IMG/VR virus record: IMGVR_UViG_3300037628_000122
Location: 1 to 43,287 of that record
Origin: a virus
Strand: one strand, 5' to 3'
Length of the DNA stretch: 43,287 nucleotides
Part shown: piece after piece, positions 4,979 through 42,682 of the stretch
Numbering within the stretch: position 1 is the first letter of the stretch
Layout of the letters: each line of letters starts with the position of its first letter
Notes under the pieces: generated by a model
Databases searched by the model: none
Seen by the model: only the letters and a program-made list of their open reading frames with translations
Told to the model about the DNA's origin: nothing
Translations under genes and position numbers: made by a program

Positions 4979-7120
4979 TCAGTCTTTAGAGAAGTAGCAG
5001 GTGACGCCATCCTGATCGGTCGAGCCTATAAGCTCAGCGTCGTGGAGCGAGTCGAGGATCTCAGAGAGTCGGTACTTGGGGATGCTGCGCGTGCCACGCG
5101 CTAGAACGGAGGGATGCATGAAGCCTCGCTTCAATAGACCCAGCTGCTTGTGTTGGGCTGGTTGGTTTGCGAGGTTGAAAAAGCTTTCAGGCTGACGGAT
5201 CATTCGCTCGACGATCTTCGACTGCTGCTCGGTGAGCGTGCCCGCACCTGTTAGTCGGATCTTCTCTTCCCAGCAGTCACAGCTCCAACGCACTATCTCC
5301 ATTGCCCAGTTCGCCAGGTCGTCCTCGATCACGGGTTTGAAAGGATCGATTCCTACAGCAGCTGTGCCTGCTAGGATCAGTGCGTTCTGATTCGCACGTG
5401 ACCAGGTAAATTCCTTACGCATCGAACGTTGACGGGCAGCTTCCTCGAACTCTTGGAAGCGGTTGTACGTCCTGGTAGTAGCGAACTCGACCTCAGTGAA
5501 ATCACCATCCGATACCTCGTGCTGCATCAGCAGACGCCCCTGCCGTTTGATTGCTGACGGGAACACTTTGCTGCGATGACGATTCAACGGAGGCATCCTC
5601 TCTCCGGTATCGAACAGGAGGAATCGGTTTACCACGCCCGTCTCTTGAGCCGTACTGGTTAGTGATTCCATGAGCATGTCGGGTTGAGCTGTAGCGAGGA
5701 GAACGAGGAAGGGGTGTATGAGATCAGGTATTTCTTTCTTGCGTCCTGGTGTTGAGCCGACAACTCCGTTGCCTTGACCGTAGAGCCTGATGATGTGCGT
5801 GATCGTTTGAAAGTCAGGACCGTTGATGTTCTTAGATGCTGCCAGGTTTCGAGCTGCTTCGTCCCAGAGCAGGCAGATGCTCCCCTCCTCCGCTAACGTA
5901 TCCAGCAGTGCGTAGTACGATTGGAACCCTTGAAAGGGCAACAGCATCCCACACTTCTCCGAGAACTCAGTGATCGCTGAGAGCACCGATCCTTTTCCGC
6001 CACCCGTAGGTGCAGTGACCATGCAGTATGGACTGATCGGTGTGTCCCACGTCTGCACGACGTACTTGTTGCTGCTCGCGTAGGCAGTGCAGATGAGACC
6101 TGTTGCTAGATCGAATACGGGTTGCTGAATGTATGATCGCTTGTTACACCACTTCGCAATATCACCGATGAGACCCGGTACGTTTAACCAGTCGGATTTG
6201 AAGTCGAGCTGCTTCTTTTTTGGTGCTAGTGTTTTCTTTGGTGTCAGCTCGATTTGGTGTTCTCTCGTGCCTGCCTTCAACCACTGCCGCAATGCGAGGA
6301 CGGTCTTCCTGGTCGTAAACTCTTCGAGCGACGTGAGCCCTTTGATGTGGTCGTCATCTTCGGCGTGCTGGATGGTGTTGACGACGGAACCCATGCGGTC
6401 CTTGATCTCTTCGTCCTCGTCCGCCACCTCACGCAGCACTGCCTGCATCACTCGAATAATTTTGTCGCGTTTCCACTTTGCGTGGCACAGGGCTCCTGTG
6501 CACGCATGAACATAATCGTGACGACCGTGTGCACCCTTCTCGGGATAGAAGTAGAGGAACACAGATGCGATTGCGATCTCGTCACCGAGTGCTTCCAAGT
6601 CGCGCTTCACGATCTCGAAAAAGAACTCATCGACGTGGATGAAGTATCGACCACCTTCCGGATGTTTGGATGGAGGCAGTACGGACTGTGCTCCCGTGGA
6701 CCTGATCTCAACGACCATGCCCAGCTCGTCCTTACCCTGGATCTGCCACTTCTTGGTTACGGCACCGACGCACCTGAAGATGTAGTGCGACCACTCCTTT
6801 CCCAGCCGACCGTAGATGAAGGTGGGGTACTCTTCGAGGATGTGCTCTGCTACCAGCGGTGCTGTGGATAAGTCTAGATCGAAATCGGTTGCCCAGTTTG
6901 ATGGCTCGCCCCAGAGACCTCCGAGATTGTCACCTAGCCGGAAGGCTTTGCCAAACTCATCGCTGACCAATCTGAGGTGTTGCCAGTTCTTGCCGCGAGG
7001 CCTTTTGGTCCCTTCGTGAAGCGGTACCGTGTAGACTCCTCGCTCCTCCCAATCAATTGCAGCTTGCTTAACATCGATTCCGGATTTACTCTGCTGCTTC
7101 TGTCCTGGGGGGTCTTCCAC
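4979..7120 (-). CDS. Bifunctional primase-polymerase / helicase (PrimPol with DUF3987-like ATPase)
   Basis: 713 aa, GTG start. The N-terminal domain (about 15-175) has the archaeo-eukaryotic primase pattern: TDFDLD around 78-83, SKH at 151-153 followed by PEGGRY, and a hydrophobic-Asp motif IHVDEF near 164. The C-terminal half has Walker A PTGGGKGS (371-378, Lys376) and Walker B ICLLWDEA (Asp420-Glu421), as in DUF3987/DnaB-like helicases of phage and plasmid replication proteins, and ends in a winged-helix-like region. It likely primes and unwinds DNA for the divergently encoded polymerase. AGGATAGAAG precedes the GTG. A basic linker (TPKKTLAPKKKQ, about 293-304) joins the halves. Confidence 0.85.
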   Translation of the reverse strand: MEDPPGQKQQSKSGIDVKQAAIDWEERGVYTVPLHEGTKRPRGKNWQHLRLVSDEFGKAFRLGDNLGGLWGEPSNWATDFDLDLSTAPLVAEHILEEYPTFIYGRLGKEWSHYIFRCVGAVTKKWQIQGKDELGMVVEIRSTGAQSVLPPSKHPEGGRYFIHVDEFFFEIVKRDLEALGDEIAIASVFLYFYPEKGAHGRHDYVHACTGALCHAKWKRDKIIRVMQAVLREVADEDEEIKDRMGSVVNTIQHAEDDDHIKGLTSLEEFTTRKTVLALRQWLKAGTREHQIELTPKKTLAPKKKQLDFKSDWLNVPGLIGDIAKWCNKRSYIQQPVFDLATGLICTAYASSNKYVVQTWDTPISPYCMVTAPTGGGKGSVLSAITEFSEKCGMLLPFQGFQSYYALLDTLAEEGSICLLWDEAARNLAASKNINGPDFQTITHIIRLYGQGNGVVGSTPGRKKEIPDLIHPFLVLLATAQPDMLMESLTSTAQETGVVNRFLLFDTGERMPPLNRHRSKVFPSAIKRQGRLLMQHEVSDGDFTEVEFATTRTYNRFQEFEEAARQRSMRKEFTWSRANQNALILAGTAAVGIDPFKPVIEDDLANWAMEIVRWSCDCWEEKIRLTGAGTLTEQQSKIVERMIRQPESFFNLANQPAQHKQLGLLKRGFMHPSVLARGTRSIPKYRLSEILDSLHDAELIGSTDQDGVTCYFSKD

Positions 7121-7261
7121 CTTCTATCCTCTGGGATGGGTTTATAGGATGAGGGCAGGGTAGCTACTGCCCAAATCCATCGGAGTGTTTATTGTCCGCC
7201 TGGACTGGACATCCTAGCGGGTAACCAGGACGCTGAAAATGACTTTCAGAAAAAAAGGCTC
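7121..7261. promoter_or_regulatory. Divergent replication control region (candidate origin)
   Basis: 141 bp between the oppositely oriented PrimPol and polymerase genes. It holds GGGCAG/CTGCCC (6-bp arms, about 7153-7172), TGTCC/GGACA (7193-7211) with nested GTCC/GGAC, and a hairpin at 7233-7249 just before the polymerase start. I see no convincing sigma70 pair on either strand and no member of the spacer-motif promoter family. Position and repeats suggest a control region and possibly an origin, but there is no iteron array or clear AT-rich unwinding element. Confidence 0.4.
7233..7249 (+). promoter_or_regulatory. Hairpin upstream of the polymerase RBS
   Basis: CTGAAA and TTTCAG are perfect 6-bp arms around the loop ATGAC, followed by seven As and the weak AAGG ribosome-binding site. 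It is probably an mRNA 5'-leader structure of the polymerase gene. It is not a rho-independent terminator on either strand, since the T-run on the minus strand precedes the stem. Confidence 0.45.
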
Positions 7262-9823
7262 ATGAGGAGCCTGAACCCCGACTGCACCGACTGTGATTTG
7301 CACGCAACCGCTCACACGGTTTGCATGGCTGGAGACGGTCCAGAGTCATCTGAGGACGTCCAGATCATTCTCGTGGGTGAGGCACCGGGCGCAAATGAGG
7401 ATCGGCGCGGGATACCTTTCATAGGCGAGAGCGGTCAGATTCTGCGCACGGAACTAGATCGCAACAAGCTCACCTCGAAGACCTACATCACCAACCTCGT
7501 CAAATGCCGCCCACCCAAGAATCGAAACCCCACCGCTGCCGAAATCAAAGCCTGCCGTCCCTACCTCGAAGCTGAGATCGAAAAACTCAAGCCAGATTAT
7601 GTAGTTACTGCTGGCGTGCCCGCGACGAAGACACTGTTCCGTGGCAAGGCGAAGATCAATCAGTTCCATGGTGAGGTGATCGAGAACGAGAAGGTGGACT
7701 ACATCGGCATGCCCATCTTCCATCCGGCGTACACGATGCGAGATCCGTCGAAGCTGCCCGGTTTGAAAGCTGACCTCGCTCGGCTCGCTCGGCTCATGAA
7801 GGGTGGCTTGCGCAACACCTCAGTCGAATGGAAAGTAGTGCGGCGCGGAAATCTCAGCAAGTTTATACAGGAGTTTGAGCAGGCTGATGAGTTTGCTTTT
7901 GATATAGAGGCATCGGGCCTTTTTCCGTTCAATCCTGAGAGCTACGTCACCGCTGTCGCCATAGCTCTGGTAGAGACCACGTGGGTCATTCCAGGATTCA
8001 TGCATCCGGATTATCAACAGTTTTCCCACAGTCCATTCGCTCACGGTAACGCACTTAAGCAATTGATGCAGCTGCTCTTTTTCATCGCCCGCCGAGACAA
8101 GAAAAGAAGTTATGCACAGAACGGGAAGTTTGATAACAAGTGGCTACGCTGCCATTTTGGAGGATCCTTCCGCCTAAGCTTTGACACCATGCTCGCCCAC
8201 CACCTGATCGATGAGAACGTCGGTCACGACCTTACCTCGATGTGCCGCACCTACCTCGATGAGCCTGAGTACGACATCCCGCTCACGGAGAAACATGGCA
8301 AGTCCGAGAAGCCTATGCGCAACTACAAGTACTGCGGTCAGGACGCAGCGTACACGCTCAGGCTGGGTCATCTCTTCGAGGAGATCCTAAGAGACCAACC
8401 CGACCTGCACAGGCTCTTCTGGAAGCTGGTGATGCCTGGAGCGCGTGCCATGGAGGAGGCAGAGATGGAAGGGCTCACCATCGACCCAGCTGCGCGCAAG
8501 GAGATCGGGCTCGACCTGCTCTCGCGTAAAATCACACTCGAACACGACCTAAACGACGCAGCAGGCTATGAGGTGAACTGGGATTCACCCCAGCAGATCG
8601 CACAGCTCCTATACGAAGAGCTGGGATTACCCTGCAAAATTCTGACGCCGAAAAAGAAAAAGAGCACATCTGAAACGGCTCTCCTCCACCTGATCGGAAA
8701 ACATGAGGTGGTGGATAAATTGATGGCATACCGCGAAGCCGCGAAATTTTTCAACACCTACATCAAGGGCTGGGAGCAGTACCGCATCGGAGACAAGTAC
8801 TTCTTCGATTACAAACTGCACGGCACCGTAACCGGTCGCTACAGCTCACCGCTGCACCCAATCCCTCGCGACGGATCCATTCGCAACCTCGTCACGGCAC
8901 CACCGGGGTGGACGTTGGTACCCATGGACATCAAGACCGCAGAGATGCGCATCGCTGCACACCTGTCGAAAGACCCGGAGATGATGCGCTGCTTCAACGA
9001 AGGTGTTGATGTGCACTGGCGCACCATGATCGAGACGCTCGCTGTTGGCACGCAAGGTGAGTTCGCCGGTCTCGTGAGGAAGACAGCGCACAAGCTCAAC
9101 CCAGCCTACAAGAAGGATTACAGCTACTCCGTTGCGTTGGACATGATGCTCTCCGAAGGACCGGGTATGTGCATGAAGATGGTACCGCGCTGGTACGAGG
9201 GACGCACACGAGCGAAGGCTATGAACTTCGGCTACCTCTACGGCATGCGCGAGCCCAAGTTCATCGAGCAGGCGAAGAAAGACTACGGATGGGAGCCGTC
9301 GATGACGGAGGCGAAGTCGTCACGCAACGCTTACTTCACTCTGTACTCTCGGCTCGAAGAGTGGCACAGAAAAACCAAAAAGCTCGCACGACTCAACGGA
9401 TACGTGCGTTGCCTAACAGGTCGTCTGCGTAGGCTCCCCGGTATCCATGCAAAGGACAGGAAGGTCAAGTCGGAGGCTGAGCGACAGGCAGTCAACTCAG
9501 GCGTGCAGGCAATGATCGGTGACTACAAAGCAATGGTCCTCATCGAGGTCCACCAAACGATCAGCCGTGACAAGTGCAGGCTCGTAGGCGAGCACCACGA
9601 CTCCGTGCTCACCATCGTCAAGGACGAACACATCGACGAGGTCGTGCCAAAGATGTTGAGGATCGCAGAGCGACCGAAGCTGATGGACACATTCAAAATC
9701 AATCTCAGCGTGCCCATGGAGGGTGAAGCAGAACTGGGACCATGGGGCAAGGGGACACATTATGAGGTTCGAGACAAGGGAGTTCGACGAAGGCCGCGTC
9801 AAGCAGTTGCTGCTAGTGCTTGA
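7262..9823 (+). CDS. Family-4 uracil-DNA glycosylase fused to family A DNA polymerase with 3'-5' exonuclease
   Basis: 853 aa with three domains. Residues 1-185 are a family-4 UDG: Fe-S cysteines C8, C11, C82 and C98, motif GEAPG at 39-43 and HPAYTM at 154-159. Residues about 205-375 are a DEDD exonuclease: Asp214/Glu216 (FDIEASG), NGKFD ending at 291, and YCGQD ending at 361. Residues about 385-835 are the polymerase: motif A MDIKTAEMR (Asp556), motif B RTRAKAMNFGYLYG (Arg648, Lys652, Phe656) and motif C HHDS (Asp780). Phe656 aligns with E. coli Pol I Phe762. Motif C has Ser781 where Pol I has Glu883. It is the phage replicative polymerase; the UDG could remove uracil or act as a specificity module. 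Strong call for all three domains. Confidence 0.95.
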   Translation: MRSLNPDCTDCDLHATAHTVCMAGDGPESSEDVQIILVGEAPGANEDRRGIPFIGESGQILRTELDRNKLTSKTYITNLVKCRPPKNRNPTAAEIKACRPYLEAEIEKLKPDYVVTAGVPATKTLFRGKAKINQFHGEVIENEKVDYIGMPIFHPAYTMRDPSKLPGLKADLARLARLMKGGLRNTSVEWKVVRRGNLSKFIQEFEQADEFAFDIEASGLFPFNPESYVTAVAIALVETTWVIPGFMHPDYQQFSHSPFAHGNALKQLMQLLFFIARRDKKRSYAQNGKFDNKWLRCHFGGSFRLSFDTMLAHHLIDENVGHDLTSMCRTYLDEPEYDIPLTEKHGKSEKPMRNYKYCGQDAAYTLRLGHLFEEILRDQPDLHRLFWKLVMPGARAMEEAEMEGLTIDPAARKEIGLDLLSRKITLEHDLNDAAGYEVNWDSPQQIAQLLYEELGLPCKILTPKKKKSTSETALLHLIGKHEVVDKLMAYREAAKFFNTYIKGWEQYRIGDKYFFDYKLHGTVTGRYSSPLHPIPRDGSIRNLVTAPPGWTLVPMDIKTAEMRIAAHLSKDPEMMRCFNEGVDVHWRTMIETLAVGTQGEFAGLVRKTAHKLNPAYKKDYSYSVALDMMLSEGPGMCMKMVPRWYEGRTRAKAMNFGYLYGMREPKFIEQAKKDYGWEPSMTEAKSSRNAYFTLYSRLEEWHRKTKKLARLNGYVRCLTGRLRRLPGIHAKDRKVKSEAERQAVNSGVQAMIGDYKAMVLIEVHQTISRDKCRLVGEHHDSVLTIVKDEHIDEVVPKMLRIAERPKLMDTFKINLSVPMEGEAELGPWGKGTHYEVRDKGVRRRPRQAVAASA

Positions 9824-40975: not shown

Positions 40976-41677
40976 TTAGTCCCTCTCTTTCGTCGCGAAG
41001 ATGTAGTCGAAATCTCCTACGAGCGCAGCAACTGCCCCTGCCTGCACACCGAAAGCGGGTTGCAGTTCACCGACAGGAAGCGCCAGACCATTCAGGTCAA
41101 GGAAGCCCAGAGCCACTCCGTTCACACCGTAGTACACACGGTCGATACCATCCCAGTACCACGCAGTTGTGAAGAGGTTCGTCGTGATCGTCGCGATTGC
41201 CACATCTGTCGCAATGTCAGCAGCTCCCGAACGCACGATGATGTCCAGCGTCGCAGCGTCGTCATCCTTGCGGAAGAAGACACCGTTGGCTGGAGTAAGA
41301 CCTCCACCGTCAGCCAGCCCAACCACGAGGTCAGAGTCAGTGGCATCGTCTACCGATTGCCGCGAGCGGAAGTACTGCTTGCGATTCGCCGCAGCCTCCA
41401 TCAGGAAGCTCTGACCGTTCTTGACGGCAAACTCGGAATCATTATCGGCACCGGCTGTGGTCAGCCGAAGCACACCACCGTCTACGTCTGCCAATGCCTG
41501 TGTCCCCGCACCTACACCAGAGAAGGTGAAGTCAGCTGCGGTGAAGTAGTCGAAGTCTTCCATGTAGTTATGGAAGCGCGTTGGGTCCAACTGAGCCATG
41601 GAGCCGAACATGTTGTTCGCGTTCCTGTTAGTGACCCCATTCTCAATGTTGGTGTTCTGAATATTTACAAAGCCCAT
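40976..41677 (-). CDS. Structural protein, 233 aa
   Basis: 233 aa starting MGFVNIQNTNIENGVTNRNA. The body has a beta-sandwich pattern (DFTFSGVGAGTQALADVDGG, VLRLTTAGADNDSEFAVKNG, VYYGVNGVALGFLDLNG), suggesting a head-decoration or lectin-like virion domain. The ATG at 41677 is preceded by TGGAGAA, which lies in the 3' arm of the hairpin at 41684-41706, so its translation may be regulated. Confidence 0.6.
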   Translation of the reverse strand: MGFVNIQNTNIENGVTNRNANNMFGSMAQLDPTRFHNYMEDFDYFTAADFTFSGVGAGTQALADVDGGVLRLTTAGADNDSEFAVKNGQSFLMEAAANRKQYFRSRQSVDDATDSDLVVGLADGGGLTPANGVFFRKDDDAATLDIIVRSGAADIATDVAIATITTNLFTTAWYWDGIDRVYYGVNGVALGFLDLNGLALPVGELQPAFGVQAGAVAALVGDFDYIFATKERD

Positions 41678-41683
41678 AAGGGT

Positions 41684-41706
41684 TTCTCCATTTCACGTCT
41701 GGAGAA
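41684..41706 (-). promoter_or_regulatory. Hairpin with sequestered Shine-Dalgarno (hairpin A)
   Basis: Read on the minus strand, TTCTCCA, the loop GACGTGAAA and TGGAGAA form a perfect 7-bp stem with a 9-nt loop. The 3' arm TGGAGAA is the Shine-Dalgarno of the gene starting at 41677, ending 6 nt before its ATG. It has the same loop as hairpin B upstream. Confidence 0.85.
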
Positions 41707-41710
41707 GTCG

Positions 41711-41735
41711 GGGGACCGTTTCACGTCCGGTCCCC
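41711..41735 (-). promoter_or_regulatory. Hairpin downstream of the major capsid gene (hairpin B)
   Basis: On the minus strand the 8-bp arms GGGGACCG and CGGTCCCC surround the loop GACGTGAAA, identical to hairpin A, four bases before hairpin A begins. It comes 18 nt after the capsid stop. No T-run follows, so it is not a standard terminator. It may protect the capsid mRNA or cause partial termination. Confidence 0.85.
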
Positions 41736-41752
41736 ACCACTTCTGGTTAAGT

Positions 41753-42682
41753 TTAGAGCCCTGGTGTGCCGAACACCGTTCGCGGATCCGTCCAGTCCGG
41801 AATGTAACGTTCCGTGGACTTGTACCGCATCGAGTCGGTCTCGAAGTCACCTTCCATCGACTTCTCCAGCCCTCGACGCATCATCATCTGGAGCCCACGA
41901 GGAGCATCCGTCTGCACCCACCACGCTGTGGTAGATGTGATACGCGAAAGGTTAGCTTGACCTTGATCAAGCAGACCCATCGAGAGGATTGGGTTGATGT
42001 CGTTGTTCGCCGTGCCTGCACGCAGGACCGACTTCAGCAACACCTCAGCCTGGAAGACTTGACTCGGACCAGTCACGATCTTGAGCGGAGTCAACCGGAT
42101 ACGCTTGCCGTTGTTGTCAACAGCGTTACGGACCTGGATAAGCATCTGCTCAAGCGACGTTTGCGACAGAGCCGCAGCAGTCGTTAACAGGTTCGAGAAC
42201 ACCCCACCTGCACTCCCACCGGGAGCAATCGGGTGGTTAGTCACGTTCAACGCGACACCGTCGCCACCGACAAACGCGCCGTTGAAAGCACGGTTGAAGA
42301 TGTTGGCACACAAAGTTTCCTTCGTTTCGATCATCGACTGAGCAAGGTGCTCAGAGTAGATCGTGCCGATGCGAATGTGATCACCGTCTTCGACGAGGAC
42401 CTTGGTCAACGCAAACGCTAGTCCGAAGACCTTGTAGACATAGCGCTGAATGAACAGCACGCCGCCAGCGTCAAACGTGACCGGGGTGCCATCAGGCATC
42501 TCGGGCGCAGCGTTGAAACCGAACAGGACCGGCTCTTCATGGTACGAACGGGGGGTACCCGTGCGCTCCGTGAATACACCTTTCCATTCGTCGGCACGCT
42601 GGTTGTAGATGCCGTCAAAGGTCTCGTTAAGGATTGGTTCTACGATTGACCGAAAGTCGGTCGATCTCATTGGAACAGCCAT
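41753..42682 (-). CDS. Major capsid protein (HK97-fold, Mu gpT-like)
   Basis: 309 aa. The pattern VTNHPIAPGGSAGG, then NNGKRIRLTPLKIVTGPSQV and TSTTAWWVQTDAPRGL resembles the Mu gpT-like type of HK97-fold major capsid proteins. Length and the position after a decoration-like gene agree. AAGGAGG precedes the ATG, as expected for a highly expressed virion gene. It is followed by the tandem hairpins at 41684-41735. Confidence 0.8.
   Translation of the reverse strand: MAVPMRSTDFRSIVEPILNETFDGIYNQRADEWKGVFTERTGTPRSYHEEPVLFGFNAAPEMPDGTPVTFDAGGVLFIQRYVYKVFGLAFALTKVLVEDGDHIRIGTIYSEHLAQSMIETKETLCANIFNRAFNGAFVGGDGVALNVTNHPIAPGGSAGGVFSNLLTTAAALSQTSLEQMLIQVRNAVDNNGKRIRLTPLKIVTGPSQVFQAEVLLKSVLRAGTANNDINPILSMGLLDQGQANLSRITSTTAWWVQTDAPRGLQMMMRRGLEKSMEGDFETDSMRYKSTERYIPDWTDPRTVFGTPGL

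Follow-up and report, generated by a model that had tools for sequence, protein, structure and literature searches.

The gap between the major capsid protein gene and the next gene of an uncultured phage contains, on the minus strand, two adjacent hairpins with one and the same loop. Is this pair a genuine RNA element, and what would such an element do at this place in the head operon? The window analysed here is the whole virus record, 43,287 nucleotides. The sequence-only reading had placed two tandem hairpins with an identical 9-nt loop in the gap, and we confirm both the arrangement and its exact span, 41684-41735.

The twin hairpins and their genomic setting

The gap is 75 nt long, and the first hairpin (HP1) starts 17 nt past the capsid stop codon. 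Read 5'-3' from the capsid stop to the ATG of the next gene, it is ...AGAAGUGGU-GGGGACCG-GACGUGAAA-CGGUCCCC-CGAC-UUCUCCA-GACGUGAAA-UGGAGAA-ACCCUU-AUG, where the second stem and loop belong to HP2 (Table 1).

Table 1. Positions of the twin hairpins, the surrounding genes and the other RNAs found at the same junction
Feature	Position	Strand	Details
Head operon	43250-42699, 42682-41753 (capsid), then 41677-40976, 40972-40340, 40340-39471	-	
Major capsid protein gene (Mu gpT-like / major head protein)	41753..42682	-	stop codon 41755-41753
GGU abutting HP1 on its 5' side	41736..41738	-	invariant in all members (alignment columns)
HP1, 8-bp stem, 9-nt loop	41711..41735	-	GGGGACCG/CGGTCCCC, 41735-41728 with 41718-41711
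HP1 loop GACGUGAAA	41727-41719	-	
Linker, 4 nt	41707..41710	-	CGAC here, UAAC in most members (alignment A3)
HP2, 7-bp stem, 9-nt loop	41684..41706	-	TTCTCCA/TGGAGAA, 41706-41700 with 41690-41684
HP2 loop GACGUGAAA	41699-41691	-	
ACC after HP2	41681..41683	-	nearly invariant (alignment)
Next gene, 233 aa	40976..41677	-	predicted concanavalin A-like jelly roll (GH16/lectin fold)
Pseudoknot RNA	L009:3968-4040; HTVC023P = L146:4970-5042		equivalents in L016, L022, L026, L030, L032, L036, L037, L040, L041, L045, L048, L058, L061, L063, L068, L072, L073
Third junction type	after capsid stop		L011, L013, L014, L019, L020, L027, L029, L039, L054, L055, L144

The capsid protein matches major-head PHROGs (phrog_4523, E 1.5e-8, and phrog_371), falls just below the cut-off for the Mu-like gpT family in Pfam (PF10124), and shares 77% identity with a protein found in Caulobacter phages GB2A, RW, RLK and KcrB. 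In GB2A (L143), a homing endonuclease gene is annotated at 7043-8593, between the capsid gene and the next-gene homologue. The product of the next gene is assigned, with fair confidence, to the concanavalin A-like jelly rolls on the basis of its AlphaFold2 model (pLDDT 75.7, pTM 0.79), which in VIA-align reaches Z-scores of up to 15.9 to GH16 glucanases, with lectins ranking lower. The proteins encoded at this position in two relatives, DSL-LC04 and Pag-Yong1, are annotated as 'cement protein' / 'minor capsid protein', and these labels suggest a role at the capsid surface.

Within the window, the evidence for the element is modest. The 9-mer GACGTGAAA occurs in the 43 kb only as the two loops, both on the minus strand; two copies are also seen in 7 of 100 shuffled sequences, so that the repeat by itself is not significant. 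The 101-nt region folds better than shuffled versions of itself (z -2.63, 3/200), and we found no convincing hairpins of this loop type elsewhere in the window, which leaves HP1 and HP2 as the sole ones. Next to the loop, HP1 ends in a G-C pair and HP2 in an A-U pair, as the sequence-only reading had stated; its view of this difference as covariation does not hold, because two hairpins of one sequence are no evidence of covariation. It is the relatives that settle the reality of the element.

Comparative evidence for a selected RNA structure

Searching viral contigs by pattern and by protein gave 17 viral records with the element, the window included, all from uncultured phages and representing 14 distinct cores. 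In 13 main-group records and in a diverged set (L282, L283, L284 and L285), it occupies the junction of the capsid gene with the next-gene homologue. When the 15 other records were searched in full with a covariance model of 11 members, each gave a single strong copy, and no convincing extra copies were seen elsewhere in the genomes of the carrier phages.

The check that the sequence-only reading had itself proposed, an alignment of the region in related phages, upholds the structure. In the covariation alignment A3, comprising 11 main-group sequences, the 15 stem positions hold standard pairs in 11/11 sequences (HP1 8/8, HP2 7/7), and nine of the 15 change on both sides, a number that none of 500 shuffles attained. 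Four of these belong to the seven pairs of HP2, while position 5 of HP1 is seen as A-U, G-C, C-G and U-A. The covariation score is 0.327, compared to 0.114 in shuffles (0/500), and a one-base shift of the partner destroys the signal, lowering the proportion of paired cells from 98.8% to 51-56%, both figures referring to the whole structure with the tested P1 and loop-loop pairs (see below) included. When mapped on the tree of next-gene proteins, the varying stem pairs require 31 pair-state changes, and every one of these states is a standard pair. On this comparative evidence, the twin hairpins are a real, selected RNA structure with near-invariant loops and compensatory stems.

The strand and the nature of the molecule are indicated by the non-Watson-Crick stem cells, which on the transcribed strand are G-U only and never A-C; this speaks for transcribed-strand RNA and against a palindrome in DNA, which would not favour such a bias. 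A DNA-level feature (a cruciform, or direct repeats bound by a protein), or else an intrinsic terminator or attenuator, is a very improbable explanation of the site. Many capsid relatives, for example L009 and HTVC023P, do have a U-tailed, terminator-like hairpin at the junction, but in the window no U-tract follows either HP1 (CGACUUCUCC) or HP2 (ACCCUUAUG), and we reject an intrinsic terminator on this ground. A terminator scan lists nothing at the site; the loop limit of that scan, 8 nt, excludes a 9-nt loop.

The loops are far more constant than the stems. Most members have GACGUGAAA, and the variants are GACGUAAA, GACGUUAAA, GACAUGAAA, GACGCGAAA, AACGUGAAC, GAUGUAAA and GAUGUGAA. Loop starts in the main group are spaced by 28 nt, or one less in L274 and L275, where loop 1 has 8 nt. 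The linker and the length of loop 2 in L282, L283 and L285 differ from those of the main group, and HP1 can be extended to 13 bp in the L282 set.

This RNA element is not previously listed and belongs to no Rfam family. Covariance models of Rfam 15 gave no matches above the gathering threshold in the window and 13 relatives, and at the element site itself only chance-level matches, far under the thresholds, were seen. The scan of bacterial genomes yielded no element among the matches listed. As a control, at least 161 tandem GACGTGAAA pairs were collected from genome_contigs, and among the matches listed none had two independent stems of at least 5 bp; the single case with 6/6 stems is an array of identical tandem repeats. 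Tandem GACGTGAAA pairs in viral contigs outside the clade likewise included no two-stem case, searches of annotated phages at the DNA level gave no meaningful matches, and nothing relevant was found in the literature on the loop string or on hairpins at capsid junctions.

Some close capsid relatives (L001, L003 and L004), with capsid proteins 92-97% identical, are without the element, which is thus dispensable in such a phage. At the junction, contigs in this range of capsid identity have different hairpins and a different start of the next gene. Among the carriers, the capsid proteins are nearly identical, and the next-gene proteins diverge down to 28% identity. Taken together, these observations make the junction and the next gene look like modules exchanged right after the capsid gene.

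What the element may do

The sequence-only reading held that the second stem hides the Shine-Dalgarno (SD) sequence of the next gene. This is the case in the window, where the SD (GGAG, 41689-41686) lies within the 3' arm of HP2, 8 nt before the ATG at 41677, with a predicted unpaired probability of 0.05, and also in four other cores (L272, L274, L178 and L255); in all five the start codon follows 5-6 nt past HP2. As a conserved function, however, masking fails, since 9 of the 14 cores have a separate SD downstream of HP2, fairly accessible in several of them, with the start codon 18-25 nt past the hairpin. Even the window and L270, whose next-gene proteins are 91% identical, differ in the placement of the SD. 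Masking of the SD is therefore real in the window, but it is not what the members share.

Over the capsid clade as a whole, and compared with the SDs of other genes, those of the next gene have modestly lower accessibility (0.38 vs 0.45, p 0.008). This fact, and the occurrence of different RNA folds in the same slot (see below), make control of the post-capsid gene the most economical role. The best-supported function among the readings considered is translational tuning of the next gene, and the twin-hairpin RNA probably sets the amount of the lectin-fold protein that is made. A fuller proposal is put forward tentatively, from sequence comparison and with a little less than even confidence: within the late mRNA, some 60 nt would act in cis to adjust how well the gene that follows the capsid gene is translated. 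The two hairpins, working as one unit, would restrict the access of ribosomes to the next gene, directly in the window, where the 3' arm of HP2 contains the SD, and from a position just upstream of the SD in relatives. The conserved loops would serve as the contact point. The simplest contact permitted by the sequence would be of loop with loop, ACGU with ACGU, by 4 bp; it would lock the hairpin pair and thereby govern the opening of HP2. The chief alternative is contact with a partner that acts in trans. The purine-rich AGAAGU before HP1 could free HP2 by pairing with ACUUCU of its 5' arm.

A precedent for hairpin control at such a place is the coat operator of the single-stranded RNA phages MS2 and R17, a hairpin between the coat gene and the next gene, over the ribosome-binding site of the latter, through which the coat protein exerts feedback. 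Our element resembles it in its place in the gap after the coat or capsid gene and, in the window, in covering the ribosome-binding site. Unlike that operator, it belongs to a tailed phage with double-stranded DNA, has two hairpins with another loop and no bulged A, does not conserve the coverage of the SD, and has a putative protein partner only. An operator of the MS2/R17 type proper, with the 4-nt ANYA loop and the bulged A, is rejected, as the element has 9-nt GACGUGAAA loops and perfect stems.

Still, the partner of the loops may be an RNA-binding protein, possibly a dimer sitting on both hairpins, and most simply a structural protein of the phage, for example the product of the capsid gene or of the next gene, exerting feedback on the next gene. 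Constancy of the loops beyond the ACGU core (G1 and the AAA on the 3' side), as well as the two identical sites at fixed spacing, would suit a dimer of this kind. Yet both loops tolerate changes (GACAUGAAA, GACGCGAAA, AACGUGAAC, and loops of 8 nt), and capsid proteins 97% identical to that of the window occur without the element, so the capsid protein as such does not depend on the site; we regard a protein operator as possible but on the unlikely side. CsrA/RsmE sites are another known type of protein target, with a GA-containing hairpin loop near the SD and a requirement for ANGGAN/GGA in the loop region. The element shares the GA-containing loop near the SD; it was rejected as a site of this type because HP2 of the window, closed by an A-U pair, has no GGA, and neither does HP1 in several members.

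The hairpins may also act on the message rather than on its translation. A very stable HP1 could shield the capsid message from exonucleases at its 3' end or mark a site of cleavage, with HP2 belonging to the same barrier, so that the capsid mRNA would outlast the downstream message. HP1 is indeed very stable, at about -16 kcal/mol, with the predicted energies of all members lying between -14 and -19 kcal/mol, and a strong hairpin, often terminator-like, follows the capsid stop in nearly all relatives. A plain barrier, however, has no need for a conserved 9-nt loop or for its repetition in another hairpin, and many relatives have plain UUCG or GAAA loops at the junction; an element of processing or stability thus seems unlikely to us.

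The ACGU of each loop is self-complementary, and 4 bp may form between loops 1 and 2, as the sequence-only reading had suggested. The suggestion fares well in 12 of the 14 cores, which have four in-register loop-loop pairs, and in L283, where ACAU in loop 1 and AUGU in loop 2 are a compensated change, with L282 and L285 as G-U intermediates. It fares worse in L178, L194 and L255, where GACGCGAAA as loop 2 (with ACGC) breaks the in-register pairing; the cores L178 and L255 have only three pairs, or four when shifted. If a shift of register is allowed, loop complementarity of at least four pairs is found in all cores. With one compensated and one disruptive lineage, and few independent loop changes, the case for kissing is only suggestive, and side-by-side kissing is harder to picture in the L282 set given the 13-bp option for HP1.

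Neighbouring hairpins whose loops pair are known from the purine riboswitch, in which P2 and P3 stand side by side. The twin hairpins are similar in being adjacent, nearly equal and able to pair by their loops, and differ in having no ligand core and no Rfam match, while a closing P1 and the loop pairing are putative. Such a P1 could be formed by the flanking GGU and ACC, making a three-way junction; this helix shows no covariation on alignment A3, and within the main group the flanks are no more complementary than permuted ones (p about 0.21). The strand before HP1 is complementary to the 5' arm of HP2 (AGAAGU/ACUUCU in the window, GGAAAU/AUUUCU in L270), and in the main group the summed complementarity exceeds permutation with p about 0.018, a value uncorrected for kinship. 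A GNRA-like fold of the loop (GAC-GYGA-AA) was rejected, as it is broken by the GUUA and AUGA variants. Retroviral GACG tetraloops take part in packaging and dimer formation (PMC516450). The loops described here also start with GACG and may make a very short loop-loop contact; unlike the retroviral hairpins, they are of 9 nt, in a late operon of a phage, with no role in dimerisation or packaging indicated, and the likeness is structural only.

Other RNAs at the same junction

A different conserved RNA, of a pseudoknot type unrelated to the twin hairpins, is found at the capsid/next-gene junction of other relatives. Its P1 helix of up to 9 bp encloses a 3-bp hairpin and the strand ACAUGC, which forms the pseudoknot with GCAUGU just before the SD. 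Fourteen of its 18 pairs change on both sides, including five of the six in the pseudoknot itself, which is 100% paired. A model made without the pseudoknot finds this RNA in 32 of the 63 loci searched, HTVC023P among them, and it has no match in Rfam. The pseudoknot RNA looks riboswitch-like. At L064:4621, L067:5625 and L080:4691 it is located at least 700 bases past the capsid gene, apparently remaining linked to the gene downstream of it where other sequence intervenes.

In a third type of junction, a terminator-like hairpin precedes UGUCAAGCUUUUCAAGGAGAAGACA, a stretch that is near-invariant, forms a hairpin and contains the SD; L144 has a CGUC...GACG variant of it. Other phages of the capsid clade have short hairpins covering the SD at the junction.

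It is conceivable, though doubtful, that the twin hairpins represent a new class of phage riboregulator, in which a minimal 4-bp kiss of two hairpins would gate a capsid-associated lectin-fold protein, and which would belong to a set of mutually unrelated RNA devices (tandem hairpins, pseudoknot, SD hairpins) kept at this junction by the capsid lineage. To our knowledge, little is known about the control of capsid-operon stoichiometry by RNA structure in phages with double-stranded DNA. A well-supported RNA family, and an unrelated covarying pseudoknot at the same capsid/next-gene junction, the latter present also in the cultured Pelagibacter phage HTVC023P, make such control testable with simple reporters.
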